Positions 113 to 19,569 of a stretch of DNA of 19,808 nucleotides are shown here, piece by piece. The stretch is from Lentimicrobium sp. GTDB lineage: Bacteria > Bacteroidota > Bacteroidia > Bacteroidales > Lentimicrobiaceae. The stretch lies in NCBI GenBank assembly GCA_013336205.1, contig JAAXUD010000005.1, positions 1 through 19,808 of the forward strand, written 5' to 3'. Made by a program: the position numbers and the translations under genes. The notes beneath the pieces were generated by a model. That model was not told the DNA's origin and did not search any database. It saw nothing but the letters and a program-made list of their open reading frames with translations. Position 1 is the first letter of the stretch, and each line of letters begins with the position of its first letter.

Positions 113-2113
113 ATGAAAAAACTTTTACTATTCACTTCTGCTTTGCTGATTAGTGCTGGTTTGTCGGCTCAAAAAAGTCTTGCCAAAGCAAAACATGGAT
201 TTCCTGTTGCTTCGCAAAAACTTTACAGTATTGACGAAGCAAGGCTGGTAAAAACACCTGCTAATGTAGCAGCCCCTTATCGCCCGTATTATAAGGCTAC
301 TGCTGATATTACTGTTGTTAGTATTGGCAATGCAGCCAATGCATATGGCTTATACAATGGCGGTCGTACCGCATTGTGGGCTGACCCCAATCTTAATACT
401 ATTGCATTTTCTCATCGTATGCTGCCTACTCCGGGTTCAGGATATCTGGCTTATGATGTATCCAAAGATGGCGGGAATACCTGGTTAATCAATAACCAGA
501 TTTTTAATCCGACTGCCGGTGGAACTGCCAATGCCCGCTATCCGCAAGGAGTAATATATAATCCAGCAGGTAATACAAATCCTGATGCGGCATATATGTC
601 GGTTTTTGCACCTACCCTTGATGGGAGTAATACTGAACCCGGCAGTTGGGGAGGATATGCCGGCGCTACTGTAAAATTTGACGGAACCGGTGTTTCGCAG
701 ATTGGCTGGCCTTCAGTTCCTCCGATCAGACAAAATGTTCCCGATGGAATGACGCTGAATCCTGTAACCGGTGATGTTTTTGTTATTGACCATTCTATGA
801 TTGGAGGACTTGGTAATCAATACGTTGATACACTGGTTATTACCAGAGGTATCTTTAATAGTGGAACCGGAGCCTACGATTACGAGCAAAGCCTGCTTTA
901 TGCCCCTGTAAACGCTTACGGCACAGCAATTTCCGATAATAAAGTAGCCTTTGCTCCCGATGGAATGACAGGATATATATTAACGCTCAGCGATAACGGA
1001 GAAGATCCCTTTGCCACTGAAAGTGCATTTTATCCAATTTTGTATAAAACTACCGATGGTGGAGTTACCTGGGATGAAGATCCCATCGTAGTACCCCTTG
1101 GTGGATCTGAAGGATTACCGGGTATTATTTATGGTCTGATGGATGATGCCCAGTGGCTTGAATTCTGGGGCGATCCTGTTCCTGAAAGGGAAGAGATTAT
1201 CTTTACCACCGCATTCACCAGCGATTTTGCTGTTGATTTCAATGGTAATCCTGTTATTAATGTTGTTATTGGTGTTTCAGGTATTCATAGCGAAACACCT
1301 CAAGCCTATTCTATACTCTCATCAGGTGGTTTCATTGCTTCGTATAATATCTTCTCACAAGATGGCGGCGAAACTTGGATAGCACAGAAACTAGGCACTA
1401 ATCTTAAGACATTCAGGGGTCATTGGGGCCTTCCTGATCCTGAAGGAATTGATGAAGACAATCGTTCACAGCTCACTTCTACACCTGATGGTACAAAAAT
1501 GTTTTTTTCATGGCTTGATACTGATTTAGGAGGTGTGGAAGATAACGTACAGCCGGATATTTATTGTGTAGGATGGGATGTAGTAAACAATACTTACACA
1601 GATGCAGATGATGCAACAGAAGCAATTGACGCGGTTAATGTTACTTACCTTTCCGATGCCTGGCTTCAGGCATATATGAGCACCGCAGCAAACCAATGCT
1701 TCACTTCCGGTACTGATTATATTATTCCATTTGTTTACCAGGCTTTGGATGAGACCCTCAATCCAGATCTTCCGGTTCAGTACAAGTATATTAAGGATTT
1801 CAAGTTCAATGAAGCTGATTTCATTTATACAGGTATGACAAATCCGCCAACCGGATTAGCCGGAGTTTCTCAAAATTACCCGAATCCATTCAACGGTACG
1901 ACTCAGATTGATGTTAATCTTATAAATCCTTCCTCCATCAGACTGGAAGTTTTTGATCTTGCAGGCCGCCTGGTGTATGAAATTCCTGCTTTTTTTGCCG
2001 GTTCAGGCAGTCATTCTTTGCACCTGGATGCTTCATATTTTAATCCGGGCATTTATATTTATTCTGTAACTACCAATGAACTAATAAGCAGTCGAAAAAT
2101 GATTGTCAGGTAA
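113..2113 (+). CDS. Secreted sialidase-fold (Asp-box) protein with T9SS type A sorting domain, copy A
   Basis: A 666-residue exported protein. Residues 1-20 are a signal peptide (MKK, hydrophobic run, cleavage after SAQ). Three Asp-box motifs (S/T-x-D-x-G-x-T-W), typical of sialidase-like beta-propellers, lie at about 117-124, 313-320 and 415-422. The C-terminal 80 residues form a T9SS type A sorting domain: SQNYPNPF at 586-593, a GIYIYSV strand near 646, and a basic end RKMIVR. By family knowledge it should cross the outer membrane through the PorSS machinery and be anchored or released at the surface. No FRIP motif or sialidase Arg triad is recognisable, so I infer a non-catalytic or unknown role, perhaps adhesion or glycan binding. 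It is about 85-90% identical to the next gene up to the sorting domain. It has its own promoter and terminator. The start is fixed by the signal peptide. Confidence 0.9.
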   Translation: MKKLLLFTSALLISAGLSAQKSLAKAKHGFPVASQKLYSIDEARLVKTPANVAAPYRPYYKATADITVVSIGNAANAYGLYNGGRTALWADPNLNTIAFSHRMLPTPGSGYLAYDVSKDGGNTWLINNQIFNPTAGGTANARYPQGVIYNPAGNTNPDAAYMSVFAPTLDGSNTEPGSWGGYAGATVKFDGTGVSQIGWPSVPPIRQNVPDGMTLNPVTGDVFVIDHSMIGGLGNQYVDTLVITRGIFNSGTGAYDYEQSLLYAPVNAYGTAISDNKVAFAPDGMTGYILTLSDNGEDPFATESAFYPILYKTTDGGVTWDEDPIVVPLGGSEGLPGIIYGLMDDAQWLEFWGDPVPEREEIIFTTAFTSDFAVDFNGNPVINVVIGVSGIHSETPQAYSILSSGGFIASYNIFSQDGGETWIAQKLGTNLKTFRGHWGLPDPEGIDEDNRSQLTSTPDGTKMFFSWLDTDLGGVEDNVQPDIYCVGWDVVNNTYTDADDATEAIDAVNVTYLSDAWLQAYMSTAANQCFTSGTDYIIPFVYQALDETLNPDLPVQYKYIKDFKFNEADFIYTGMTNPPTGLAGVSQNYPNPFNGTTQIDVNLINPSSIRLEVFDLAGRLVYEIPAFFAGSGSHSLHLDASYFNPGIYIYSVTTNELISSRKMIVR

Positions 2114-2134
2114 TGTTCTTATTAGTAATAACTT

Positions 2135-2163
2135 AGCCCATGGATTATTCCATGGGCTTTTTT
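2135..2163 (+). terminator. Rho-independent terminator after copy A
   Basis: A perfect 9-bp stem, AGCCCATGG (2135-2143) with CCATGGGCT (2150-2158), closes a 6-base loop and is followed by a T run to 2163. It lies 21 bases after the stop codon. Confidence 0.85.
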
Positions 2164-2266
2164 GTATTCCATTTTTGGTTCAGTAGTACAGCAGGAATGC
2201 TACTTGCAAAGTGAAATTTTTATAATAATTTCTTTCATAACAATTATTTACAGGTCTAATATTTTC

Positions 2267-2274
2267 TATTTTTG
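2267..2274 (+). promoter_or_regulatory. Bacteroidota -7 box TATTTTTG of copy A'
   Basis: TATTTTTG matches TAnnTTTG exactly, 38 bases before the ATG at 2313. The -33 region is weak (only TTA near 2244-2246). Together with the terminator at 2135-2163, this makes the second paralogue an independent transcription unit. Confidence 0.55.
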
Positions 2275-2312
2275 TTGTGATAGATTCTTTTCTTTAACCC
2301 AAATTTAAACCA

Positions 2313-4304
2313 ATGAAAAAACTCTTACTATTCACATCTGCTTTGCTGATAAGTGCTGGTTTGTCGGCTCAGAAGAGTCCGGCAAAAGCAAAACTTGGAT
2401 TTCCTATTGCCTCGCAAAAATTGTACAGTATTGATGAAGCAAGCCTGGTAAAAACCCCTGCGACTGTAGCAGTCTCTTATCGCCCGGCTTTTAAAGCTAC
2501 AACTGATATTACTGTTGTTGATCTTGGTAATGCTGCCAATGCCTATGGTTTGTACAATGGTGGTCGTACCGTTTTGTGGGCTGACCAAAATCTGAATACT
2601 GTTGCATTTGCGCATCGTATGACTGCTTCCCCAGGCTCGGGTTACCTTGCGTATGATATTTCCAAAGATGGCGGGAATACCTGGTTAAACAACAACCAGA
2701 TTTTTAACCCGACCGCCGGTGGAACTGCTGTTGCCCGTTACCCGCAGGGAGTAATCTATAATCCGGCAGGTAATACAAATCCTGATGCAGCTTATATGTC
2801 GGTTTTTGCACCTACCCTTGATGGTAGTAATACTGAACCTGGTAGCTGGGGCGGATATGCCGGTGCTACTATAAAACTTGACGGAACCGGTGTTTCACAG
2901 ATTGGCTGGCCTTCAGATCCTCCGGTCAGGCAGAATGTTCCGGATGGAATGACCCTCAATCCTGTAACCGGTGATGTTTTTGTTATTGACCATTCAATGA
3001 TTGGAGGACTTGGTAATCAATACGTTGATACCCTGGTTATTACAAGGGGTATCTTTAACAGTGGAACCGGCGCTTACGATTACGAGCAAAGTTTACTTTA
3101 TGCGCCTGTAAACACTTACGGTACTGCAGTCTCTGATAATAAAATAGCCTTCGCTCCCGATGGAATGACGGGGTATATATTAACACTCAGCGATAACGGA
3201 GAAGATCTTTTTGCTACTGAAAGTGCATATTATCCTATTCTATACAAAACTACAGATGGCGGAGTTACCTGGGATGAAGATCCAATCGTAGTTCCCCTTG
3301 GTGGACCTGACGGATTGCCAGGTGTTGTTTATGGTCTGATGGACGATGCCCAGTGGCTTGAATTCTGGGGCGATCCTGTTCCTGCCAGAGATGAGATTGT
3401 CTTTACTACCGCATTTACCAGCGACTTTGCCGTTGATTTCAATGGCAACCCTGTTATTAATGTAGTTATTGGTGTTTCAGGTGTTCATGGCTCAACGCCT
3501 ACTGCATATTCAATTCTCTCCTCAGGCGGTTATATTGGTTCCTACAATATCTTCTCACAAGATGGTGGCGAAACCTGGATTGCACAGAAAATTGGCACCA
3601 ATCTGAAGACTTTCCGTGGCGAATGGGGTGGTACCGAAGGCATTTCGGAAGATAACCGTTCACAGATCACTTCTACACCTGATGGTACAAAAATGTTCTT
3701 CTCATGGATTGATACCGATTTTGAAGGCCAGGAAGATAATCTGCAGCCGGATATTTATTGTGTAGGCTGGGATGTAGTTAACAATACTTACACCGATGCA
3801 GATATTTCTACAGAAGCAATTGATGCGGTTAATGTTACTTTCCTTTCCGACGGATGGCTTCAGGCGTTCATGGGGACTGCCTCTAATTATTGCTTTACTT
3901 CAGGATCTGACTATATTATTCCTTTCGTTTATCAGGCAATGGATCCACTTGATCCGGCTCTTCCTGTTCAGTACAAGTATATCAAGGATTTCAAGTTTAA
4001 CGAAGCTGATTTCATTTTTACAGGCGTTAATAATCCGGCAACTGGCTTAGCCAGCGTTTCCCAGAACTATCCAAACCCGTTCAGCGGAATATCACAGGTT
4101 GATGTTAACCTCACAGCTTCAGCAGTTGTAAGCCTGGAGGTTTATAACCTGGTTGGTCAGAAAGTTTACGAACTGCCTTCACGCAATCTGCCTGCCGGCG
4201 CTCACTCACTTACATTAAATGTTGCAAACCTTAAGGCCGGCATTTATACTTATTCAGTGATTGCCAACGACAATCGCATAACCAGGAAAATGGTTGTCAG
4301 GTAA
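2313..4304 (+). CDS. Secreted sialidase-fold (Asp-box) protein with T9SS type A sorting domain, copy A'
   Basis: A 663-residue tandem paralogue of the preceding gene. The signal peptide (MKKLLLFTSALLISAGLSAQ) is identical. Asp boxes are at about 117, 313 and 415, and the sorting domain begins at SQNYPNPF (583). The central part, about residues 110-400, is nearly the same as copy A at both protein and DNA level. The loop after FRG (residue 435) is two residues shorter, and the segment after FVYQA is one shorter. After about residue 593, identity to copy A drops to roughly 44% by hand count. There the protein is at least as close to the fourth gene of the array (about 50%, with the shared NRITRKM/ERITRKM ending). 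The role is inferred to be surface binding, as for copy A. The two copies may have diverged in specificity or in surface display. Confidence 0.9.
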   Translation: MKKLLLFTSALLISAGLSAQKSPAKAKLGFPIASQKLYSIDEASLVKTPATVAVSYRPAFKATTDITVVDLGNAANAYGLYNGGRTVLWADQNLNTVAFAHRMTASPGSGYLAYDISKDGGNTWLNNNQIFNPTAGGTAVARYPQGVIYNPAGNTNPDAAYMSVFAPTLDGSNTEPGSWGGYAGATIKLDGTGVSQIGWPSDPPVRQNVPDGMTLNPVTGDVFVIDHSMIGGLGNQYVDTLVITRGIFNSGTGAYDYEQSLLYAPVNTYGTAVSDNKIAFAPDGMTGYILTLSDNGEDLFATESAYYPILYKTTDGGVTWDEDPIVVPLGGPDGLPGVVYGLMDDAQWLEFWGDPVPARDEIVFTTAFTSDFAVDFNGNPVINVVIGVSGVHGSTPTAYSILSSGGYIGSYNIFSQDGGETWIAQKIGTNLKTFRGEWGGTEGISEDNRSQITSTPDGTKMFFSWIDTDFEGQEDNLQPDIYCVGWDVVNNTYTDADISTEAIDAVNVTFLSDGWLQAFMGTASNYCFTSGSDYIIPFVYQAMDPLDPALPVQYKYIKDFKFNEADFIFTGVNNPATGLASVSQNYPNPFSGISQVDVNLTASAVVSLEVYNLVGQKVYELPSRNLPAGAHSLTLNVANLKAGIYTYSVIANDNRITRKMVVR

Positions 4305-4344
4305 TTTAACACTTGCCCAAATTTTTCCTAAGTTTATTGAAAGG

Positions 4345-4372
4345 CCTGCAGTTTTTCTGCAGGTTTTTTTTT
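4345..4372 (+). terminator. Rho-independent terminator after copy A'
   Basis: The stem CCTGCAG (4345-4351) with CTGCAGG (4357-4363) closes a TTTTT loop. A nine-T run (4364-4372) follows. Confidence 0.85.
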
Positions 4373-4456
4373 GTTTTTACAAAACACTACATATGACTTA
4401 TTTACAGCCTGCTAAATGGTTAAATTTTGTTAAACATCAGATGTTTTTTTTCAAAA

Positions 4457-4488
4457 TTGTGATTCAATTAATAATTTATTTAGTTTTG
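4457..4488 (+). promoter_or_regulatory. Predicted promoter of copy B
   Basis: TTG at 4457-4459 is followed after 21 bases by TAGTTTTG (4481-4488), an exact match to TAnnTTTG. Transcription is expected to start near 4495. This leaves a leader of about 33 bases before the ATG at 4528, and only about 9 bases before the alternative ATG at 4504. Confidence 0.6.
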
Positions 4489-4527
4489 TGGTGAGAGAAT
4501 CATATGTTTCACCCAAACCCAATACTC

Positions 4528-6402
4528 ATGAAAAAATTAGTACTCTTTACTTTGGCTTTGGCTTTAAGTGCAGGTGTTATGGCACAGCAAGCCCGTATTA
4601 AAACGACTAAATCAATGCAGAATATTGCCATTGAAAAACTCGCTGCTATTGACGAAACCTCTAATCTGCAAACTATAGTAAATCCTTATGTTCATTCAAG
4701 GATTGTACCAACCGAAGCAGAAATCGGAGGAACTGTTTACGATCTTCAGTCCAATGGATCCAGCCCATCAAACCGTATTGAATTATTCAGTGATGGTACC
4801 ATCGGTACTACCTGGACACGCGGAACAGGCCCAACTACTTACGCAGACCGTGGAACCGGTTATAACTATTTCAATGGTGCCGATTGGGGTCCAGCACCTA
4901 CCAACAGGGTAGAGGTTGCCCGTTCAGGTTGGCCTGCCTATACTGCCTGTGGTCCTGAAGGCGAAGCTTTTGTTTCACATATTTCAGGAACTGCTGGTCT
5001 TACTTTTGTAAAAAGAGCTACCAAAGGAACCGGTGCCTGGACTGAAACTGTTATTGCCGCTCCTTCAGGAGCCAGCGGTTTACTTTGGCCACGTATGGTT
5101 GCCAGCGGACCAGATAACAACATCCTTCATGTATTTGCTTTAACAGCCCCTGTTGCAAACGGTGGAACTGTTTATAACGGACAGGATGGTGCTGTTGTTT
5201 ATGCCCGTTCAACTGATGCCGGCGCAACCTGGTCAACTCCTGAAGTACTGGATGGTATGGGTGCTGATTATTACGTTGCTTTTGGTGGTGACAGCTATTC
5301 ACTTAGTGCAAAAGGTGATAATGTAGCTTTCCTGTTAACTGACAACTGGACAGACTTATTTGCCTATAAATCAAATGATAATGGTGAAAACTGGGAAAAA
5401 GTTCTTATTTGGGAACACCCTATTCCAATGTGGAATAACACACCTTCAATTGATACTATTTATTGCCCCGATGGTGCAGGACATGCCACTTTCGATACCG
5501 ACAACAAAATGCATGTGGTGTTTGGTGTAAACAGAGGTTTATTTGAAGATGGTGACACAGCGCCAAGCTGGTTCCCGTTTGTTGACGGTCTTGCCTACTG
5601 GAATGAAAGTATGGATACCTGGACAGGTGGAGATCAGGCCAATGTTTTGAATCCGGATGCTCTTTACGAAGAAGGCGCATTGGTTGGTTATATGATTGAT
5701 ATCAACAACAACGGAAGTCTTGATTGGGTAGGTACAGATATAGCCAATATTGGTCTTTATTATGTTTCACCTTCTAGTCTTGCACAAATTGTAATTGATG
5801 AGCAGAACCAGGTATTTGTTGTGTTTACTTCTATTACTGAAGGTTACGACAACGGTTCACAACAATACAGGCATCTGTGGGTACGTACATCACCTGATGG
5901 CGGAACAACCTGGGGAGATTTTATTCACCTTTCAGAAGATATTATCCATATCCTTGACGAGTGTGTATTCCCATCTGCAGCAACTTTAACAGATGACAAT
6001 ATTCACGTTATTTACCAGGCTGACTCAGAACCAGGACTTGCAGTTCGTGGTGATGAAGATGCTCCGGGTGAGAACATCTATTACTACATGCAAATCTCTA
6101 AAGATGTAGTTATCGGAGTTAATGAGGGTGGTGTAAAAGTTAAGGAAATGGTAGTTTCACAGAACTATCCTAACCCATCCAACGGAGCTACTTCAATTGA
6201 TGTTACCCTCGCTGGTAATTCAAGTGTTAGTGTTGAGGTTTATACCATTACCGGTCAGAAGGTTGCTGATAATTCTTATGGTAACTTTACAGAAGGCACA
6301 CACAGGATTGACCTGAACAGTGCTAATCTGAAATCAGGCATCTATTTCTACACTGTAAAAGCTGGTGAAAAATCAGTTACAGGAAAAATGACAATTCTCT
6401 AG
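4528..6402 (+). CDS. Secreted sialidase-fold (Asp-box) protein with T9SS type A sorting domain, copy B
   Basis: A 624-residue exported protein. The reading frame is open from an ATG at 4504, but the signal peptide MKKLVLFTLALALSAGVMAQ begins at 4528. The earlier ATG sits almost on the predicted transcription start, so 4528 is chosen. Asp boxes: S228-TDAGATW, S282-NDNGENW and S455-PDGGTTW. Residues 391-399 (DINNNGSLD) look like an EF-hand or dockerin-type calcium loop. A T9SS type A sorting domain starts at SQNYPNP (544) and ends GKMTIL. It shares most of its sequence with the next gene, including YADRGTGYNYFNGADWG, FPFVDG.AYWNE and GSQQYRHLW. It is only distantly like the A pair. The enzymatic or binding role is unknown; no sialidase catalytic signature was recognised. 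Confidence 0.9.
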   Translation: MKKLVLFTLALALSAGVMAQQARIKTTKSMQNIAIEKLAAIDETSNLQTIVNPYVHSRIVPTEAEIGGTVYDLQSNGSSPSNRIELFSDGTIGTTWTRGTGPTTYADRGTGYNYFNGADWGPAPTNRVEVARSGWPAYTACGPEGEAFVSHISGTAGLTFVKRATKGTGAWTETVIAAPSGASGLLWPRMVASGPDNNILHVFALTAPVANGGTVYNGQDGAVVYARSTDAGATWSTPEVLDGMGADYYVAFGGDSYSLSAKGDNVAFLLTDNWTDLFAYKSNDNGENWEKVLIWEHPIPMWNNTPSIDTIYCPDGAGHATFDTDNKMHVVFGVNRGLFEDGDTAPSWFPFVDGLAYWNESMDTWTGGDQANVLNPDALYEEGALVGYMIDINNNGSLDWVGTDIANIGLYYVSPSSLAQIVIDEQNQVFVVFTSITEGYDNGSQQYRHLWVRTSPDGGTTWGDFIHLSEDIIHILDECVFPSAATLTDDNIHVIYQADSEPGLAVRGDEDAPGENIYYYMQISKDVVIGVNEGGVKVKEMVVSQNYPNPSNGATSIDVTLAGNSSVSVEVYTITGQKVADNSYGNFTEGTHRIDLNSANLKSGIYFYTVKAGEKSVTGKMTIL

Positions 6403-6424
6403 TCATCATAATTTTTGAGACAGG

Positions 6425-6454
6425 AAAGGCAACCGGATCCGGTTGCCTTTTTTT
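6425..6454 (+). terminator. Rho-independent terminator after copy B
   Basis: A perfect 26-base palindrome (6425-6450) with arms AAAGGCAACCGGA and TCCGGTTGCCTTT runs into further T residues to 6454. Confidence 0.85.
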
Positions 6455-6490
6455 ATTTTTTAATATTCGTGGTTGCAATCAATAGTTTAT

Positions 6491-6498
6491 TAATTTTG
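6491..6498 (+). promoter_or_regulatory. Bacteroidota -7 box TAATTTTG of copy B'
   Basis: TAATTTTG matches TAnnTTTG exactly, 38 bases before the ATG at 6537, the same distance as in copy A'. The -33 element is poor: TTG at 6473-6475 is spaced only 15 bases away. The leader holds a small palindrome, TTTTGTT (6513-6519) with AACAAAA (6521-6527). Its meaning is unknown. Confidence 0.55.
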
Positions 6499-6536
6499 TC
6501 TATTATCAACAATTTTGTTTAACAAAACGCAAAACA

Positions 6537-8387
6537 ATGAAAAGACTTTTACTCTTAACCTGCATTATTTCGCTTGGAATTAGCGTGGTAGCCCAGGATT
6601 ATGTCCGGATGCCTAAACAATTGAAAGACATTGCTGCTCCTGATATGAAATCGGTTCGTGAAGCAGTTAATCCTGTTTCTCAGCCTGCAAATCCTTATGT
6701 AAGGACAGGCCGTGTGATCAATGAAACTGAACTTGGAAGTACTTTCTATGATTTGCAGTCGAATACCTCTGCTCCTGCAAATCGTTTCTATCGTTACGAA
6801 GATGGTACAATGGCAGCCGTATGGACCCGTGGTATGAATACCGCTGGTTATGCTGACAGAGGAACCGGATATAATTATTTTAATGGTGCCGATTGGGGAG
6901 CCGCTCCAACAGCCCGTATCGAAACTCAAAGAACAGGCTGGCCCACCTATGCCCCTCAGGGAACCGGTGAACTTGTTATAGCTCACCACAATACCGCTGG
7001 TTTGGTGGTTAGCCGCCGCGATACCCGTGGAAGTGGTCCATGGACAGAATCAATTCTGGCAGGCCCTGCCGGAGCAGTTGATATTTCATGGCCAAGAATG
7101 GTAAGCAGTGGCGAAGACAACCTGACAATAAACCTTCTTGCCATGACTTACGTGGCTTATCAGGATCAAGACCTGGCTATGCTCTATTACAGATCAACCG
7201 ATGGTGGTGCAACCTGGGATAAACAACATGAAGTTCTACCTGGCATGGGCTCAGATGAATATACCGGTTTCAGCGGTGATACTTATTCATGGGCAGATTC
7301 CAAAGGCGACACCATTGCATTTATTGTATGCGACAACTGGACTGACTTATTTGTTATGAAGTCACCTGACAATGGTGATACCTGGGAAAAAATTATGATC
7401 TGGGAACATCCTTATCCAATGTGGAATGGTACCGAAGCAACGGATACATTTTACTGTCCTGATGGTGCAGCACACCTTGCTTTTGACAAGACCGGTAAAC
7501 TTCATGTAGCTTTTGGTGTAAACAGGGCCATGATGGAAGAAGGTGCAACAGGACCAAGCTGGTTTCCATTTGTTGATGGCGTTGCCTACTGGAATGAAGA
7601 TATGGACCCATGGACCGGTGGTGATGTGAATGCACTGGATCCTGATGTGCTCTTTGAAAACGGCAACCTGATTGGCTGGATGCAGGATGTTAATGAAAAT
7701 GGCGAATTAGACCTTGTTGGTTTTGATGTAAGCAATATTGGGTTATATTACATTAGTCCTTCAAGTATGCCTCAGATCACCGTTGATGATGACAACCAGG
7801 TATTTGTTGTTTATTCAAGTCTTACCGAAGGTTTTGATAACGGAAGTCAGCAATACAGGCACCTGTGGTCAACCACTTCTCCTGATGGCGGAACTACCTG
7901 GGGTGAATTTAATGACCTGACAGGCGATATCCTCCATATTTTGGATGAATGTATATTCCCGACAATCGCCAATCGGACTGACGGTCAGGTTGTCCACCTG
8001 ATCTATCAGGCAGATACTGAGCCAGGACTGGCAATCAGAGGTGATGAAGATGCACCTAGCGAAAATATTTATTACCATTTGTCAGTTGATAAAGGTGATA
8101 TCGTGAAAGCTGGTAGCAAACCGGTGCCTTCATTCGAACTTTCACAGAACTATCCCAATCCGTTTACAGGTGAATCAATGGTTAGCCTGATGCTCAACAA
8201 AACATCTGTTGTAAGCCTGGAAGTCAATGATCTTCTCGGAAGAATGGTTTATCAGCTACCTGCTGCAAAAATGAATTCAGGCGTTAATACGCTGACCATT
8301 TCTGCCGATAACCTGAATCCGGGTGTTTATACCTATTCCGTTATTGTTAACGGCGAACGCATTACCCGTAAAATGATGGTTGAATAA
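6537..8387 (+). CDS. Secreted sialidase-fold (Asp-box) protein with T9SS type A sorting domain, copy B'
   Basis: A 616-residue paralogue of copy B. The signal peptide MKRLLLLTCIISLGISVVAQ covers residues 1-20. Asp boxes: S220-TDGGATW, S276-PDNGDTW and S448-PDGGTTW. A calcium-loop-like DVNENGELD lies at 384-392, at the same place as in copy B. The sorting domain begins at SQNYPNPF (536-543) and ends RITRKMMVE. Its C-terminal domain resembles copy A' (VVSLEV, GVYTYSV, RITRKM) more than it resembles its close body paralogue B (GIYFYTV, GKMTIL). Export through the Sec system and the T9SS follows from family knowledge. The molecular function is not evident from the sequence. Confidence 0.9.
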   Translation: MKRLLLLTCIISLGISVVAQDYVRMPKQLKDIAAPDMKSVREAVNPVSQPANPYVRTGRVINETELGSTFYDLQSNTSAPANRFYRYEDGTMAAVWTRGMNTAGYADRGTGYNYFNGADWGAAPTARIETQRTGWPTYAPQGTGELVIAHHNTAGLVVSRRDTRGSGPWTESILAGPAGAVDISWPRMVSSGEDNLTINLLAMTYVAYQDQDLAMLYYRSTDGGATWDKQHEVLPGMGSDEYTGFSGDTYSWADSKGDTIAFIVCDNWTDLFVMKSPDNGDTWEKIMIWEHPYPMWNGTEATDTFYCPDGAAHLAFDKTGKLHVAFGVNRAMMEEGATGPSWFPFVDGVAYWNEDMDPWTGGDVNALDPDVLFENGNLIGWMQDVNENGELDLVGFDVSNIGLYYISPSSMPQITVDDDNQVFVVYSSLTEGFDNGSQQYRHLWSTTSPDGGTTWGEFNDLTGDILHILDECIFPTIANRTDGQVVHLIYQADTEPGLAIRGDEDAPSENIYYHLSVDKGDIVKAGSKPVPSFELSQNYPNPFTGESMVSLMLNKTSVVSLEVNDLLGRMVYQLPAAKMNSGVNTLTISADNLNPGVYTYSVIVNGERITRKMMVE

Positions 8388-10541: not shown

Positions 10542-11126
10542 TCAGTTCATCTGTTTGAGTGCAATCTCGCGGCCAGCCTGCAGTGCGTCCAGGTTTACTT
10601 TAATCACATCCTCTCCTTTTTTACGGAAGATATTGCGAATGGCTTCCTGTAATTGGTCGTAATCAATATCCAGGAAATGAGAAGCCGCCCCCAGGATAAC
10701 CATATTGGCTGATTTGGGCGAACCCAATTCCCTGGCTATTTCATCAGCATCAAGGGCAATATGACGTGGCTGCGATTCAATTTCGGCCAGCAGTTTTGCC
10801 ATTTCAGGATAATTCTTAATATTTATATAGGGCTTGGTATTGGTTACCAGCCAACCTTGTGGCGATAACATCGGCAGATACCTGAGCGACTCCATGGGCT
10901 CGACTGAAATAATCATATCGGCTTTGCCGAAAGGAATAAGATCGGAAGCAATATCGCGGTCAGATATCCTGAGATTCGACTGCACATCGCCACCGCGCTG
11001 GCTCATGCCATGCACTTCGGCCTGTTTTAGGAAAAGACCTGCGTTTAAGGCGGCTGTGCCGATGGTTGCTGCTATCGATAGTATTCCTTGTCCGCCTACA
11101 CCGGCGAGAATTATGTCTTTTTTCAT
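10542..11126 (-). CDS. iorB: Indolepyruvate ferredoxin oxidoreductase, beta subunit
   Basis: A 194-residue protein of the pyruvate/ketoisovalerate oxidoreductase gamma-domain family. The N-terminal IILAGVGGQGIL (residues 5-16) and the following KQAEVHGMSQRGG (34-46) are the family's hallmark motifs. IorB pairs with IorA to convert aryl-pyruvates such as indolepyruvate, formed from aromatic amino acids by transamination, to aryl-acetyl-CoA, CO2 and reduced ferredoxin, in the cytoplasm of anaerobes. The stop codon of iorA ends one base before this ATG (TAA-T-ATG on the minus strand), so translation is probably coupled. Its length is normal for the family. Confidence 0.92.
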   Translation of the reverse strand: MKKDIILAGVGGQGILSIAATIGTAALNAGLFLKQAEVHGMSQRGGDVQSNLRISDRDIASDLIPFGKADMIISVEPMESLRYLPMLSPQGWLVTNTKPYINIKNYPEMAKLLAEIESQPRHIALDADEIARELGSPKSANMVILGAASHFLDIDYDQLQEAIRNIFRKKGEDVIKVNLDALQAGREIALKQMN

Positions 11127-11127
11127 A

Positions 11128-12753
11128 TTATGCCTCTGCTTTTTCGGTTGCCTGTTTTTTCTTTTCTTCCCTCATTCTGCGGGTAAGCGTCTGAATGCAC
11201 TCACGCCTTGGTATAATTACAGATACGCCTTCGTATGCAATCTCTTCTTTCATCACCGCAAGGTTTTCCTCATGATGTTTCTGCAATGGATTTAAAATCC
11301 GGATATGATCTTTATGAACGCCGAGTGCAAGGCAGATATCTTCAATTTTACCGACAGCGGCTGAATCCTGCCCCCCGGTCATACCGGTGGTGCCATTGTC
11401 AAGAATCATCACGGTAATCGATGATTTATTATTGACGGCATCCAACAGGCCGGTCATTCCGGAATGGGTGAAGGTAGAGTCGCCGATTACAGCTACTGAA
11501 GGCAGTAGTCCGGCATCGGCAGCGCCTTTGGCCATGGTTATGGATGCACCCATATCTACACACGAATTGATGGCATCAAACGGCTCAAGCGCTCCGAGTG
11601 TATAACAGCCTATATCAGAAAACACACGTCCTTTGTAGAATTCAGACAAAGCTTCATTCAAAGCATTGTAACTATAGATATGCGGGCAGCCCTTGCAAAG
11701 AGATGGCGGCCGGCTGGTAACCAGTGCAGGGATGTCCCTTCCACGGGTATCGGTAAGCCCCATAGCAACGGCTACAATGTTCGGATTTAATTCTCCGTCG
11801 CGTGGAACTGTACCATCCAGACGGCCTTTGATTAGTTTGCCATTGTTAAGCAGTCCACGGAGCTGTTCTTCAACAACCGGTGCGCCGTCTTCAAGCACCA
11901 GGATACTTTCGCAAGTATCGTAAAGTTGTCTGATCATTGTATCGGGCAGGGGATACTGTCCGATACGAAGCACAGGGTGAGGAATTTTGTGGTCATCATA
12001 ATTTTCCATCAGGTAATTATAAGCAAGGCCACAGGTAATGATTCCCAGTTTTTTATCGGGATGGTCAAGTAATTGGTTAAAAGCGGATGTTTCAGAAGAA
12101 TGAATGAAATTAGCCTGATTAGCAAGTAGTTGCTTGTATTGGCGCCTGGCGTTGGCAGGTAGTAGTATGAACTGTTTGAGGTTTTCGGGTAATTTCAGGT
12201 CATTTTGTTTCCTGATTTCACGCCTGGCAACACCGGCCCTGGAGTGGGCGAGCCGGGTGGTGATGCGCATAAGCACCGGTATGCGGAATTTCTCACTTAA
12301 TTCGAATCCCAGGTGAACCATATCATAGGCTTCCTGCTGATTGCCTGGCTCAAGGATTGGCATCATGGCAAACTTGCCGAAGAAACGTGAATCCTGCTCA
12401 TTCTGAGATGAATGCATAGAGGGGTCGTCGGCCGCAACCACGATAAGACCTCCGTTTGCACCGGTGATGGCGGAATTGACAAATGCATCGGCTGCAACGT
12501 TTAATCCTACATGCTTCATGCAGACCATGGCACGCTTACCGGCATAGGACATGCCCAGTGCGGTTTCCATCGCGGTTTTTTCATTCGCACCCCATGAAGC
12601 TATGATGTTCAGCGACTTCGCCTCTTTTGAATGCATAACATATTCCGTGATCTCGGTTGAGGGTGTGCCAGGATAGGCATAAATTCCTGACATCCCGGCA
12701 TCAATTGCACCCTGGGCTATGGCTTCATCGCCTAACAATAACAGCTTCTGCAT
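11128..12753 (-). CDS. iorA: Indolepyruvate ferredoxin oxidoreductase, alpha subunit, without C-terminal ferredoxin domain
   Basis: A 541-residue thiamine-diphosphate enzyme subunit. The N-terminal pyrimidine-binding half carries GDEAIAQGAIDAG (8-20) and YPGTPSTEI (27-35), with E58 in GANEKTAMETALG as part of the cofactor-proximal segment. The central SLCKGCPH (351-358) is typical of IorA. The TPP-binding stretch is GDSTFTHSG (424-432) followed by ILDN (450-453). The C-terminus ends in a charged tail, and only C519 lies beyond residue 480. The tandem [4Fe-4S] ferredoxin domain that ends archaeal IorA (about 600-650 residues) is therefore absent. Electrons presumably pass to a separate ferredoxin. 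From memory, shorter forms of this kind also occur in other Bacteroidota. It heads an iorAB operon. Confidence 0.92.
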   Translation of the reverse strand: MQKLLLLGDEAIAQGAIDAGMSGIYAYPGTPSTEITEYVMHSKEAKSLNIIASWGANEKTAMETALGMSYAGKRAMVCMKHVGLNVAADAFVNSAITGANGGLIVVAADDPSMHSSQNEQDSRFFGKFAMMPILEPGNQQEAYDMVHLGFELSEKFRIPVLMRITTRLAHSRAGVARREIRKQNDLKLPENLKQFILLPANARRQYKQLLANQANFIHSSETSAFNQLLDHPDKKLGIITCGLAYNYLMENYDDHKIPHPVLRIGQYPLPDTMIRQLYDTCESILVLEDGAPVVEEQLRGLLNNGKLIKGRLDGTVPRDGELNPNIVAVAMGLTDTRGRDIPALVTSRPPSLCKGCPHIYSYNALNEALSEFYKGRVFSDIGCYTLGALEPFDAINSCVDMGASITMAKGAADAGLLPSVAVIGDSTFTHSGMTGLLDAVNNKSSITVMILDNGTTGMTGGQDSAAVGKIEDICLALGVHKDHIRILNPLQKHHEENLAVMKEEIAYEGVSVIIPRRECIQTLTRRMREEKKKQATEKAEA

Positions 12754-13723: not shown

Positions 13724-15076
13724 TTAAACGAGGCCCTGTGCAAGCATGGCATCTGCAACTTTAACGAACCCACCAATATTGGCTCCGTTCACGTAGTTGA
13801 TAAATCCGTCAGCATCTTTTCCATATTTTACGCATGTTTCATGAATATCGCGCATGATCTGGTGAAGTTTTGCATCCACTTCTTCGCGGGACCATGAGAG
13901 GCGCATTGAATTTTGTGTCATTTCAAGGCCTGAAACTGCCACACCACCAGCATTTGCTGCTTTACCAGGTCCATAAAGGATTTTGGCTTTCAGATAAACT
14001 TCAACTGCATCCGGAGTCGATGGCATATTGGCGCCTTCTGAAACAACATAACAGCCATTGGCTACCAGGAGTTTGGCGTCGTCTTCATTTACTTCATTCT
14101 GGGTAGCGCATGGGAGAGCAACGTCGCATTTAATGATCCAGGGGCGTTTGCCTTCGTGGAATTCACAGCCGTATTTGTCTGCATATTCTTTAATTCTGCC
14201 ACGTTTTACATTCTTCAGGTTCATCAGGTAAGCCAGTTTTTCAGCATCGATGCCCTTGGGGTCGTGGATGAATCCTGAGGAATCGGATAGGGTTACGACT
14301 TTTCCACCCAATTGAGTAACTTTCTGAACGGCATATTGAGCTACATTCCCAGAGCCGGAAATGGTAACGGTTTTTCCTTTCAGGCTGTCGTTGCGGGTTT
14401 TAAGCATTTCTTCTGCAAAATAGGTACAGCCGTAACCTGTAGCTTCAGGTCTGATAAGACTGCCTCCCCATTCGCGGCCTTTTCCGGTTAAAACGCCGGT
14501 AAACTCATTTCTCAGACGTTTGTATTGTCCGAAAAGGAAGCCGATTTCACGACCACCTACGCCGATATCTCCGGCAGGTACGTCTGTGTCAGGGCCGATA
14601 TGACGGAAAAGTTCCGACATAAAGCTCTGGGTAAATTTCATCACTTCATTGTCTGATTTTCCTTTTGGATCGAAATCGCTTCCACCTTTACCACCACCCA
14701 TAGGCAGGGTAGTAAGGCTGTTTTTAAGCACTTGCTCAAAGGCAAGGAATTTCAGGATTCCAAGGTTTACTGTCGGGTGAAACCGCAATCCGCCTTTATA
14801 TGGTCCAATCGCGCTGTTCATTTCAATGCGGTATCCACGGTTTATCTGAACTTCGCCTTTATCGTCGAGCCAGGGAACACGGAACAGAATAACACGCTCA
14901 GGTTCTGCCATACGCTCAAGGATTTTTGCATCCTTGTATTTGGGGTGCTCTTCAATAAATGGAATCAGGGATTCAACCACCTCGTGAACAGCCTGGTGAA
15001 ATTCAACTTCACTCGGATTCTTGGCAATGATTTTAGCCATAAAATCGTTGAGTTTCTGATCAAATACGTTTGCCAT
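13724..15076 (-). CDS. gdhA: NADP-type glutamate dehydrogenase
   Basis: A 450-residue hexameric-class glutamate dehydrogenase, the usual length for the bacterial NADP(H) form. It interconverts glutamate with 2-oxoglutarate and ammonia and links nitrogen assimilation with carbon metabolism. Substrate and catalytic motifs: GPYKGGLRFHP (91-101, K94), LPMGGGKGGSDFDPKGKS (124-141, catalytic K130) and PAGDIGVGGREIG (167-179, D170). The Rossmann domain carries GSGNVA (241-246), followed by SDSSG (264-268), where Ser residues rather than an acidic residue favour NADP(H). Start MANVFDQKLN at 15076. It has its own terminator and a possible promoter at 15121-15148. No neighbouring gene is cotranscribed. 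Confidence 0.96.
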   Translation of the reverse strand: MANVFDQKLNDFMAKIIAKNPSEVEFHQAVHEVVESLIPFIEEHPKYKDAKILERMAEPERVILFRVPWLDDKGEVQINRGYRIEMNSAIGPYKGGLRFHPTVNLGILKFLAFEQVLKNSLTTLPMGGGKGGSDFDPKGKSDNEVMKFTQSFMSELFRHIGPDTDVPAGDIGVGGREIGFLFGQYKRLRNEFTGVLTGKGREWGGSLIRPEATGYGCTYFAEEMLKTRNDSLKGKTVTISGSGNVAQYAVQKVTQLGGKVVTLSDSSGFIHDPKGIDAEKLAYLMNLKNVKRGRIKEYADKYGCEFHEGKRPWIIKCDVALPCATQNEVNEDDAKLLVANGCYVVSEGANMPSTPDAVEVYLKAKILYGPGKAANAGGVAVSGLEMTQNSMRLSWSREEVDAKLHQIMRDIHETCVKYGKDADGFINYVNGANIGGFVKVADAMLAQGLV

Positions 15077-15309: not shown

Positions 15310-15969
15310 TTAGACTTCAATCAGGTTGTTGCGGATTGCAAACTTAACCATATCGACCGTTGTTTTCAGGTTTATTTTGCGCATAATATTGTTTTTATGC
15401 GATTCCACTGTCCGTATGCTTACGAATAATTTGTCGGCAATCTCCTGATTGGTATAGCTCTCCGCAAACAACCTCAACACTTCAAGTTCGCGGTCACTCA
15501 GGTTGCCGGTCGGATGATTTCTTACTGCTGTTGTTGCACCAGGCTGGTTGAGGTAACGTTTAAGAATAATGTTGGAAATAGATTTACTATAATAATCATA
15601 ACCATTCCTGATGGTCATAATGGCTTCAATCAGTTCGTTCCGGTCGGCATCTTTACTGAGAAATCCTTTGGCGCCTGCTTTCAATGTGCGTAGAATAAAG
15701 CTTTCCTGCACTGTCATGGCCATAATAAGGATTTTAATCTGAGGATGTTCCCTTTGTATGATACGGATCATGTCAATGTCATGATCGCCGGGTTCATAGG
15801 TGTTCAGCAGGATAACATGAATGGGCAGAATTCTGAGTTTTATCAGTAATTCCGAGAGATTACGAACACACCCCATGACAATAATATTCTGACTGTCAGA
15901 TAGCAAAGCCCTGATGCCTTCACAAACAATGTGATGATCGTCAACCAGAATTACTTCAATTTTACTCAC
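15310..15969 (-). CDS. NarL/LuxR-type response regulator with degenerate receiver domain
   Basis: A 219-residue two-domain regulator. The receiver (about residues 3-120) keeps the acidic pair D10-D11 and K106 in FLSKDA. The phosphoacceptor position, normally Asp in a VxLLDxxxPG context, reads VILLNTYEPG with N56 (codon AAC). The usual Ser/Thr after strand 4 is Ala (A84). Residues about 155-217 form a LuxR-type helix-turn-helix: LSDRELEVLRLFAE, NQEIADKLFVSIRTVESHKNNI. DNA binding should therefore be intact while classical phosphorylation is not possible. No histidine kinase lies in the window. It diverges from the receiver/ATP-grasp fusion gene with 141 bases between the start codons chosen here. 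It could act as a constitutive or ligand-controlled regulator. Confidence 0.92.
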   Translation of the reverse strand: MSKIEVILVDDHHIVCEGIRALLSDSQNIIVMGCVRNLSELLIKLRILPIHVILLNTYEPGDHDIDMIRIIQREHPQIKILIMAMTVQESFILRTLKAGAKGFLSKDADRNELIEAIMTIRNGYDYYSKSISNIILKRYLNQPGATTAVRNHPTGNLSDRELEVLRLFAESYTNQEIADKLFVSIRTVESHKNNIMRKINLKTTVDMVKFAIRNNLIEV

Positions 15970-16048: not shown

Positions 16049-16110
16049 TATAGTTTGCCGGGCTGAAGCCGGACTTTTTATTTAATTTAGTGGCAACGAA
16101 TAAGCCTGTT

Positions 16111-19100
16111 ATGACTGATAATAATGACAAAAATCCGGACATCAGGAAACTGATGCATGAACAGGGTGAACGACTTAAAGAGTTGGCCGCCATCAATCAG
16201 ACCACCCAGATTCTGCGTGAAGGAAAACCAATGGATGAAACACTTCAGCAACTGGCAATGATTTTTCCGGCTGCCTGGCAATATCCTGACTACACCTCTG
16301 CCAGGATTAAATTCGATGGGAAGGAATATAAATCGGCTGGATTTAAAGAAACAAGCTGGCTTCAGCGACAGCATTTCGAAACAATAAACGACAAAAAGGG
16401 CGCAATAGAAATTTACTATGTAAAGGAGTTTGTGACCGCTGACGAAGGACCTTTCCTTGCGGAGGAAAGGCATCTGATCAGTAACCTGGCCAATATGATC
16501 ACCGGCTATCTCAATAGCCAGGAAGCTAAAAATCTGCTTCGCAAAACAAAACCTCAGTGGCCAACCGGGGAGCCAGTTGCAGAGCAGAAGCTGGTGGCTT
16601 CTTCAAGCAGGCAGCTGTTACAAAAATTCCTTAATAAAAACAATTATGACCGCGATGTTTATCACGATCTGATGCCTTTCAAGGTAAAGGAAATTTTACT
16701 GGTTGCCAATCTTTATGATGCCTATAGTATTGAAAAGGAGGGCAGGTTTTCAGAACATGTGCTGGGCGAATATCATCAGCTGAGTCTTACTTCAATGCCA
16801 AGGATAACCGGGGTTTCATCGGAAGAGGAGATTTTTGCCCAGCTTCAGCGCAAGCATTTTGATCTTATTATTTTTATGGTTGGCGTTGAGAAAAATCAGC
16901 CACTTAATCTGAGTGCGAAGATCAAAGCTGAATTCCCTTACATTCCGATTTTTCTATTGTTGAACAACAACAAGGACATTTCCTACTTCAGGGGAAAGCC
17001 TCTGATGCGCAATGTCGATCGTATTTTCGTATGGAATGGTGAATCGAAGGTTTTCTTCGCCATGATTAAACATATTGAAGATAAAATCAATGTTGAAAAC
17101 GATACCAAGGTTGGTCTGGTCAGGGTAATCCTGCTTGTTGAAGATTCGCCCCAGTATTATTCCCGTTACCTGCCGCTACTCTACAGTATTGTGCTGGAGC
17201 AGACCAGGCGCATAATTGAGGATGTCAGTACTGATGAATTGTATAAAGTACTCAGGATGCGTGCCCGGCCAAAAATACTCCTTGCCTCTAATTTTGAAGA
17301 AGCCCGTGAGATATTGAATAAGTTCAGGGATTATATGCTCTGCCTGATTTCTGATGTTGAATTTGAGAAAAATGGGAAAGATTATAACCAGGCTGGTTTT
17401 GAACTGGTAAAGTATGCCCGTGAACTGATTGGAGAAATTCCGACCATCATACAGTCCCACAATCCTGAAAATGCCAGGATGGCTTACCAGTTAAAAACAA
17501 CCTTTATCGATAAAAACTCTGAAACCCTGGTGCAGGATTTTAAGAGTTTTATCACGCATTATCTGGGTTTTGGAAATTTTATTTACCGCGATAACGAAGG
17601 AAGTCAGATAGCTGTGGCCCGCTCTCTCAAAGAATTTGAATCTCTGCTTAAAACCATCCCTGATGAGTCATTGATTTACCATGCGAAAAAGGACCACTTC
17701 TCGTTGTGGCTTATGGCTCGTGGCGAGATACAGGTGGCCAAAATTATAAATCCGGCCAAAGTAACCGATTTTGAAAGCCCCTCAACACTCAGGGCGTACC
17801 TGGTTGACGTTATTCAGCAATTCAGAAACGAACAAAACAAAGGAAAGGTAATTCCATTTGATGAAGCCGCAATACTCGACGAAACCAACGTGGTGAGTCT
17901 GAGTTCCGGTTCACTGGGTGGCAAAGGACGCGGTCTGGCATTTATTAACACCCTGATTTATAATCATGATTTTGAGCAGATTCTGCCAAATATTCACATA
18001 AGAACGCCCAAAACATCTATAATTGGTACCGACGAATTTGAGTATTTTATTGAAAGGAATAAATTGCATGACAAAGTCGTGAACAATCCGGATTATGAAG
18101 AGATAAAAAAGATTTTCATGCATGCATCGCTCACTGAAACCCTCATTAAGCGGCTCAGGATTCTGCTCAAGAATATTTCGAATCCGATTGCGGTCAGGTC
18201 ATCGGGCCTGTTTGAGGATTCATTGATGCAGCCATTTGCCGGAATTTTTGAAACTTACCTATTGCCAAACAATCATCCTGACTTTAATACCAGGCTTCAA
18301 CAGGCGATGGACGCGATAAAACTCGTTTATGCCTCTGTTTATTCGAAGGTGGCCAGGGGGTATATTGAAGCGATCAACTATAAGATTGAAGAGGAGAAGA
18401 TGGCAGTTATCATTCAGGAAGTGGTTGGCAACCGGTTTGAGGATAGTTATTATCCCCACATCAGCGGGGTGGCCCAGTCTTACAACTATTATCCATTTGC
18501 CCACATGAAGCCTGAGGAGGGTTTTGCGGTAGCTGCACTTGGACTGGGAAAACAGGTTGTTGAAGGAGAAAAAGCGTATCGTTTTTCCCCTAAATATCCG
18601 ACAACTGAAATTAACAGCCCACAGGACCAGGTTAAAAATTCACAGGTTGACTTTTTTGCAGTTGACCTTAAAAAAAAGGATATCAACCTGCTTGAAGGCG
18701 AAACAGCCGGTCTTATTAAACTTGAGCTTGACGACGCCGAACGGCATGGCAACCTCAGGCACCTGGCTTCAGTGTATGATTATGAAAATCATCGGATTGT
18801 ACCGGGACTTACACAAGCTGGCCCCAGAATTATTAACTTTTCCAATATATTGAAGTACAATTATATACCACTTGCCCAAACGATAGATCTTGTGCTTGAT
18901 GTGGTGAAAGAAGCCATGGGAGCACCTGTTGAAATTGAATTTGCAGTTGACCTTAACCGTGACGATCAATTAAGGTCCTCCTTTTATCTGCTTCAGATCA
19001 AGCCACTGATCGGTAGTATGCAGGACTATAGCTTTGATGCGGATCAAATTGATCCTGAGCGGATTCTGTTATTGTCGGGGAAGGGTATGGGCAATGGAAT

Positions 19101-19569
19101 AATTGACGACATCACAGATGTAATTTATATTGATATAGCGGCCTTCGACAAAGGGAAAACCAATGAAATGGCCCTGGAAATTGAGTCGTTGAATAAGGAG
19201 ATGATGAAAAACAACCGCAAATACCTGCTGATTGGTCCGGGGCGCTGGGGTACACGTGACCGTTGGATCGGTATTCCGGTAAACTGGCCACAGATTTCTT
19301 CTGCAAGGGTGATTGTTGAAACAAGCCTGGAAGGCTATCCGCTTGACGCATCTTCAGGGTCTCATTTCTTTCATAATGTAACCTCTATGAATGTTGGATA
19401 CTTTTCTGTTCAGCAGGAGCTTTCGGGTTCAATTATTAAATGGGACATTCTTGATAAACAAAAACTGGTTCAGCGGACAAAATTCTTCAGGCATGTGCAG
19501 TTCGAAAAACCGGTTACCATTAAGATGGATGGCAAGAAACGTATAGCTGCCATTACCTGGGAGGTTTAG
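16111..19569 (+). CDS. GAF / receiver / PPDK-type ATP-grasp fusion protein (PEP/pyruvate-binding domain protein)
   Basis: 1152 residues from ATG 16111; the frame is also open from a GTG at 16090 (1159 residues), which overlaps a possible -7 box, so ATG is preferred. Residues here count from the GTG. About 22-148 is GAF-like (FPAAWQYP, ARIKFDG, EGPFLAEE). About 198-330 is receiver-like but lacks the acidic pocket. About 344-490 is a receiver with an insertion: E351-D352, phosphoacceptor-like D422 in LISDVE, S456 and K475. About 605-975 is the ATP-grasp domain of pyruvate phosphate dikinase/PEP synthase: GGKGRGLAFIN (610-620), AVRSSGLFEDS (701-711), IEFAVD (949-954) and LQIKPL (968-973). The C-terminus carries IGPGRWGTRD (1048-1057) and GSHFFHN (1090-1096). 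The TSHAAV-type phosphohistidine and PEP/pyruvate TIM-barrel domains are missing, so it cannot be a complete PPDK or PEP synthase. I infer a signalling phosphotransferase or sensor. Confidence 0.88.
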   Translation: MTDNNDKNPDIRKLMHEQGERLKELAAINQTTQILREGKPMDETLQQLAMIFPAAWQYPDYTSARIKFDGKEYKSAGFKETSWLQRQHFETINDKKGAIEIYYVKEFVTADEGPFLAEERHLISNLANMITGYLNSQEAKNLLRKTKPQWPTGEPVAEQKLVASSSRQLLQKFLNKNNYDRDVYHDLMPFKVKEILLVANLYDAYSIEKEGRFSEHVLGEYHQLSLTSMPRITGVSSEEEIFAQLQRKHFDLIIFMVGVEKNQPLNLSAKIKAEFPYIPIFLLLNNNKDISYFRGKPLMRNVDRIFVWNGESKVFFAMIKHIEDKINVENDTKVGLVRVILLVEDSPQYYSRYLPLLYSIVLEQTRRIIEDVSTDELYKVLRMRARPKILLASNFEEAREILNKFRDYMLCLISDVEFEKNGKDYNQAGFELVKYARELIGEIPTIIQSHNPENARMAYQLKTTFIDKNSETLVQDFKSFITHYLGFGNFIYRDNEGSQIAVARSLKEFESLLKTIPDESLIYHAKKDHFSLWLMARGEIQVAKIINPAKVTDFESPSTLRAYLVDVIQQFRNEQNKGKVIPFDEAAILDETNVVSLSSGSLGGKGRGLAFINTLIYNHDFEQILPNIHIRTPKTSIIGTDEFEYFIERNKLHDKVVNNPDYEEIKKIFMHASLTETLIKRLRILLKNISNPIAVRSSGLFEDSLMQPFAGIFETYLLPNNHPDFNTRLQQAMDAIKLVYASVYSKVARGYIEAINYKIEEEKMAVIIQEVVGNRFEDSYYPHISGVAQSYNYYPFAHMKPEEGFAVAALGLGKQVVEGEKAYRFSPKYPTTEINSPQDQVKNSQVDFFAVDLKKKDINLLEGETAGLIKLELDDAERHGNLRHLASVYDYENHRIVPGLTQAGPRIINFSNILKYNYIPLAQTIDLVLDVVKEAMGAPVEIEFAVDLNRDDQLRSSFYLLQIKPLIGSMQDYSFDADQIDPERILLLSGKGMGNGIIDDITDVIYIDIAAFDKGKTNEMALEIESLNKEMMKNNRKYLLIGPGRWGTRDRWIGIPVNWPQISSARVIVETSLEGYPLDASSGSHFFHNVTSMNVGYFSVQQELSGSIIKWDILDKQKLVQRTKFFRHVQFEKPVTIKMDGKKRIAAITWEV

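Follow-up and report, generated by a model that had tools for sequence, protein, structure and literature searches.

Domain architecture and family of the gene at 16111..19569

We analyzed a 19,808-bp stretch of DNA from Lentimicrobium sp. (contig JAAXUD010000005.1 of a draft genome of 914 contigs; hereafter the window) and examined the gene at 16111..19569 (+), which encodes a GAF-like domain, a degenerate receiver, a second receiver, an ATP-grasp domain of the pyruvate phosphate dikinase (PPDK) type and a C-terminal domain. The open frame extends from a GTG at 16090 to 19569 (+). The likely start is the ATG at 16111, because the corresponding frames in loci L007, L009 and L010 open no more than two codons before the equivalent Met; residue numbers follow this 1159-aa frame, as in the first-pass annotation. 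The ORF is a member of a conserved family, found in 39 of 41 relative genomes and in 49 of 296 genomes drawn evenly across the phylum of the window. Genomes were sampled within this phylum; in plasmid searches, 3 of 72,556 records carried the family, all from Bacteroidota. Among the matches listed, the closest named one was L025, a Lentimicrobium metagenome-assembled genome (MAG), with 82% identity.

The GAF-like sensor domain (residues 16-152; 16135..16545, +) was assigned from a structure model and a match to DosP. The degenerate receiver (residues 198-342; 16681..17115, +) lacks the phospho-acceptor Asp, as indicated by the model, the alignment and Foldseek matches to the two receivers of PleD. 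The receiver that follows (17116..17583, +) has the receiver fold with an acidic pair, a phospho-Asp, a Ser/Thr and a Lys (E351, D352, D422, S456 and K475; the D422 codon lies at 17353-17355, +). A helical linker (residues 499-585; 17584..17844, +) with a conserved H531, seen in the model and the alignment, leads to the PPDK/RPH-type ATP-grasp domain (residues 586-975; 17845..19014, +), which contains K612, R703, E948, E950 and Q969 and matched PF01326 in the Pfam scan with an E-value of 6.6e-41. Scanning the protein at E-values up to 1 detected no PEP/pyruvate-binding barrel, and in the structure model the chain finishes with the C-terminal domain. The same scan detected neither HisKA nor HATPase_c, the domains of a classical histidine kinase, at E-values up to 1. 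These results bore out the first-pass annotation in its description of a sensor and a degenerate and an intact receiver fused to a PPDK-type ATP-grasp domain that lacks the PEP/pyruvate domain. Its suggestion that the protein may bind pyruvate found no support and was rejected because no barrel domain was detected, and we do not expect the protein to produce PEP or pyruvate.

The family occurs in four architectural forms. Type A has the GAF-like domain, two receivers and the core, with additional tandem GAF-like copies in some longer orthologues, while type B (about 1000 aa) has two receivers and the core. A short form of 584-604 aa consists of the ATP-grasp and C-terminal core only, and a fourth form of 1060-1069 aa begins with a region that resembles a GAF-like domain by eye, followed by the core. 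A C-terminal nucleotidyltransferase domain was present in both proteins scanned (L165 and L167) of the four of this last kind (L165, L166, L167 and L170). The short and the 1060-aa forms adjoin in L165, L166 and L170, and in L167 the 1060-1069 aa relative lies beside a glutamate dehydrogenase-like gene. Since the ATP-grasp and C-terminal pair is the constant part across the four forms, the receivers appear to be an optional input. In L032 (8166-9915), two proteins are encoded between a type-A and a type-B gene. One, of 293 aa, has a nucleotidyltransferase domain and is partly similar to the window protein; the other, of 283 aa, is presumably a metallophosphoesterase, and its relatives also neighbor the family in L166 and L167.

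To assess conservation we aligned family members from the fetched loci (205 hits, of which 3 did not span the profile and were dropped, the remaining 202 giving 188 distinct members). The fetched loci included 80 type-A loci, the best 80 of at least 537 confirmed. The alignment comprised 97 type-A, 83 type-B and 3 short members and a divergent group of 5 of the 1060-aa type, one of which is a 931-aa protein. K612, R703, E709, Q776, E950, Q969, R1052, W1053, D1057, E1077, G1090, H1092 and F1093 were invariant in all 188 members; E769 was altered in a single type-B row and E948 was replaced by Asp in the divergent group. Judged by what we take to be the catalytic residues of PPDK, the ATP-grasp domain is a nucleotide-binding domain of the PPDK/PEP synthase kind with its catalytic residues kept (188/188); the loss of such residues, which the first-pass annotation had named as grounds for abandoning its view, was not seen. 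The receiver pocket was equally constant in type A, where E351, D352, D422, S456 and K475 were each found in 97 of 97 members. In type B, E351 and D422 were present in 83 of 83, K475 and S456 in 82 of 83, and D352 in 72 of 83. H531 was conserved in 97/97 type-A and 82/83 type-B members (179/180 together).

The C-terminal domain as a probable phosphocarrier

The C-terminal domain (residues 985-1159; 19042..19566, +) probably adopts a swivelling phosphocarrier fold, as suggested by the structure model, a structural aligner and the alignment. The model resembled the swivel/phosphohistidine domain of rifampin phosphotransferase (RPH) and PPDK with one structural aligner only. A swivel-domain motif, T/SxxGGxxxH, has been described (PMC12167813, cited passage); this motif is absent and in its place the sequence DASSGSH leads up to and contains H1092 (codon 19363-19365, +). 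Several results weigh against a swivel fold. The protein did not match PF00391 at E-values up to 1 in the Pfam scan, and a comparison of the C-terminal profile with the PPDK phosphohistidine domains of relatives (65 sequences versus 29 domains) gave nothing significant. Neither did a repeat with 86 of 104 sequences versus 25 of 29 PPDK domains, the remainder being omitted since they did not contain the trimming pattern. A profile search of the sequences of solved structures returned unrelated proteins, at a best E-value of 0.15, and Foldseek with the C-terminal domain found no significant match. Since neither the profile comparisons nor Foldseek gave a match, the assignment draws on the structural aligner, the domain order and the invariant His.

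The first-pass annotation had considered the phosphohistidine domain to be absent, which is probably wrong given that the C-terminal block is predicted to fold like one. It had also proposed His residues of this block as a possible alternative phosphate acceptor. The conservation of H1092 in 188/188 members points to this residue as the likely candidate. H1095 is not conserved beyond type A and the short form (three members), being replaced by Gln in 81 of 83 type-B members; we rejected H1095 as a general acceptor. Taken as a whole, the earlier observation was partly confirmed and its interpretation partly supported.

Genomic neighborhood

The gene is divergent from that of a NarL-type regulator (15310..15969, -) in which Asn replaces the phospho-acceptor Asp. 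Beyond it lie an NADP-specific glutamate dehydrogenase gene (13724..15076, -; NF006929, E-value 2.2e-233, over the cut-off) and then an indolepyruvate ferredoxin oxidoreductase pair, comprising an alpha-like gene (11128..12753, -; TIGR03336, E-value 7.9e-157, below the cut-off) and a beta gene (10542..11126, -; NF005324, over the cut-off). In the phylum sample, at least 42 of 49 full-length members had a glutamate dehydrogenase domain hit no more than 3.5 kb away and seven were counted as lacking one nearby, this count omitting short forms, divergent forms and two rows from the window's own genome. By genome, at least 32 of 39 had a member near glutamate dehydrogenase, and these 32 span ten families; a simple model with 2 to 6 glutamate dehydrogenase copies in 4 Mb gave a chance expectation of 0.5 to 1.5%. 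In the near relatives the proportion was lower, with 18 of 59 members within 3.5 kb and four more at 3.6 to 4.9 kb (some of the 59 rows are partial; small fragments and GAF-like-only rows were omitted), and type B was often apart from glutamate dehydrogenase. Parabacteroides distasonis carries a type-B-like gene, annotated only as 'PEP/pyruvate-binding domain-containing protein', beside gdhA, and a second glutamate dehydrogenase is found four genes on. In L178, L179, L184 and L186, which belong to the genus of the window, the type-B genes share neighbors that we take to resemble a phosphate ABC transporter. Because the gene couples sensor and receiver modules to an ATP-using core of metabolic origin and stands beside glutamate dehydrogenase in many relatives, it probably helps to control the carbon/nitrogen balance.

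We also surveyed the neighbors of type A in 81 loci (the window and 80 others), 64 of which had at least 2 kb upstream and 58 at least 3.5 kb downstream; the neighbors were named from a single scanned representative of each cluster. Upstream, glutamate dehydrogenase was the divergent neighbor in 26 of the 64 loci, KorB was the same-strand neighbor in 16 (KorA being next in 16/16), and a NarL regulator adjoined in 10 (9 divergent and 1 on the same strand); one locus had an NfnB/Fdh-like gene, and the remaining 11 had other genes. The KorAB-like enzymes are predicted to be 2-oxoacid:ferredoxin oxidoreductases. Downstream, 30 of the 58 loci had a second family member as the next gene, in the same orientation, and 7 had NuoE-like followed by NuoF-like genes. 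One type-A gene, 67% identical to that of the window, is on L033, a contig assigned to an Alphaproteobacteria MAG that may be mislabelled; NuoE-like and NuoF-like genes come after it, as they do at other loci. In the NarL cluster, 16 of 19 aligned members, the window regulator included, lacked the phospho-acceptor Asp, which was present in L026, L031 and L034 (a short 156-aa frame). On account of these 16 members the NarL regulator seems to be phosphorylation-independent, and it was disfavored as a phosphate acceptor.

Proposed function and alternatives

With moderate confidence, we propose that the protein acts as a histidine autokinase derived from PPDK, takes input through its receiver and regulates the glutamate/2-oxoacid node. 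From the observed presence and conservation of the parts and the observed neighborhood, we infer every functional step. ATP would be bound by the ATP-grasp domain, as its conserved residues suggest, and this domain would phosphorylate H1092 of the swivelling domain, in keeping with the predicted fold and the invariance of the residue. The GAF-like domain and D422 may set the amount of the phospho-form, either by an outside histidine kinase phosphorylating D422 or by D422 taking phosphate from H1092. The neighborhood suggests that the phospho-form would alter the activity or assembly of a neighboring enzyme, glutamate dehydrogenase in the first place; where korAB precedes the gene, the 2-oxoacid:ferredoxin oxidoreductase may also be a target. 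The nearest tested precedent is VadK (Rv1127c), a two-domain PPDK-derived histidine autokinase that reportedly interacts with enzymes of the methylcitrate cycle and does not regulate this cycle transcriptionally (PMC13400623, cited passage). Like the window protein, VadK joins a PPDK-type ATP-binding domain to a His-bearing domain and is proposed to act directly on enzymes of central metabolism. It differs in its partners, the methylcitrate-cycle enzymes, and in that the main text of the paper names two domains and does not use the word 'receiver' (PMC13400623). Furthermore, its His domain had been superposed on solved PPDKs. Of the two domains of such a barrel-less core, the window protein has the ATP-grasp domain with certainty, and the second was recognized by fold only, with one structural aligner. 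If the proposal is true, the family would represent a regulator of the glutamate/2-oxoglutarate balance in a major phylum, gut bacteria among its members, and would exemplify how a metabolic dikinase became a signalling kinase.

Among the alternatives, it is possible, if somewhat unlikely, that the protein is a response regulator with a kinase output, in which a separate histidine kinase phosphorylates D422 and so switches the ATP-grasp/H1092 module, with no transfer from H1092 to D422. The pocket does resemble that of an ordinary receiver, and two type-B copies in L168 flank a sensor histidine kinase (MctS and UhpB being its best NCBIfam models, each under its cut-off) together with a NarL regulator that has the Asp. 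The same places in L169 are taken by a 485-aa frame and a NarL regulator with Asp. On the other hand, none of the four scanned window neighbors was a histidine kinase, a weak objection as the scan covered those four only. We consider unlikely a phosphorelay within one protein, where the ATP-grasp/swivel pair would substitute for a classical histidine kinase and the phosphate of H1092 would pass to D422, either in the same chain or in a type-B partner, or to another receiver. H1092 and the receiver pocket are both invariant in type A, and the second family member on the same strand at 30/58 loci would fit such a partner; yet the 584-604 aa form without a receiver still has the ATP site and H1092, and the adjoining NarL regulator, mostly without Asp (16/19), is not the usual acceptor. 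Doubtful, too, is the wider claim that the ATP-grasp/swivel pair derived from PPDK is a separate type of histidine kinase serving receivers, with phosphate passing from H1092 to D422 in cis or in trans, and that in Bacteroidota this relay governs glutamate dehydrogenase and 2-oxoacid:ferredoxin oxidoreductase.

The missing swivel motif and the failure of sequence profiles to recognize the C-terminal domain would also suit a non-catalytic energy sensor, in which binding of ATP or AMP shifts a protein contact without phosphate transfer; we have little confidence in this explanation, as the retention of K612, R703, E950, Q969 and H1092 in 188/188 members would be unusual for a dead enzyme. Least probable, and indeed very unlikely, is a metabolic dikinase acting on a small molecule with the sensory domains as regulators only. 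RPH and HpeHI use the same core for small-molecule substrates (PMC12167813, cited passage), but no acceptor-binding domain was seen in the family and the short form consists of the ATP-grasp and C-terminal domains only.

Comparison with other known systems

RPH, the top structural match, and HpeHI share the ATP-grasp fold with the window protein, and their swivel fold resembles that predicted for its C-terminal domain; unlike it, they have their own substrate-binding domain and the T/SxxGGxxxH motif (PMC12167813, cited passage). PPDK and PEP synthase share the ATP-grasp residues and probably the carrier-domain fold, whereas the window protein has neither the PEP/pyruvate barrel nor the GG...H motif and carries GAF-like and receiver domains. 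It has the tandem pair of receivers of PleD-type proteins (Foldseek), but its output is the ATP-grasp core and not GGDEF. The pairing of receiver and PPDK domain is already in print: REC-PPDK response regulators were named as a 'Bacteroides-like combination', in the cited passage without a function, a C-terminal domain or a gene neighborhood (PMC5847659), and PPDK effector domains were found with Asp-less receivers (PMC4395418, cited passage). A word search of one open-licence library turned up neither a described function for the Bacteroidota family nor any study of what it does, of its C-terminal domain or of the glutamate dehydrogenase link; a characterized function for this domain order, which would have spoken against the first-pass annotation, did not turn up there. 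Elsewhere in the window, the region 113-8387 encodes four similar, apparently secreted tandem proteins that by eye form two alike pairs. Their C-terminal ends, also by eye, resemble what we take to be type IX secretion sorting signals.
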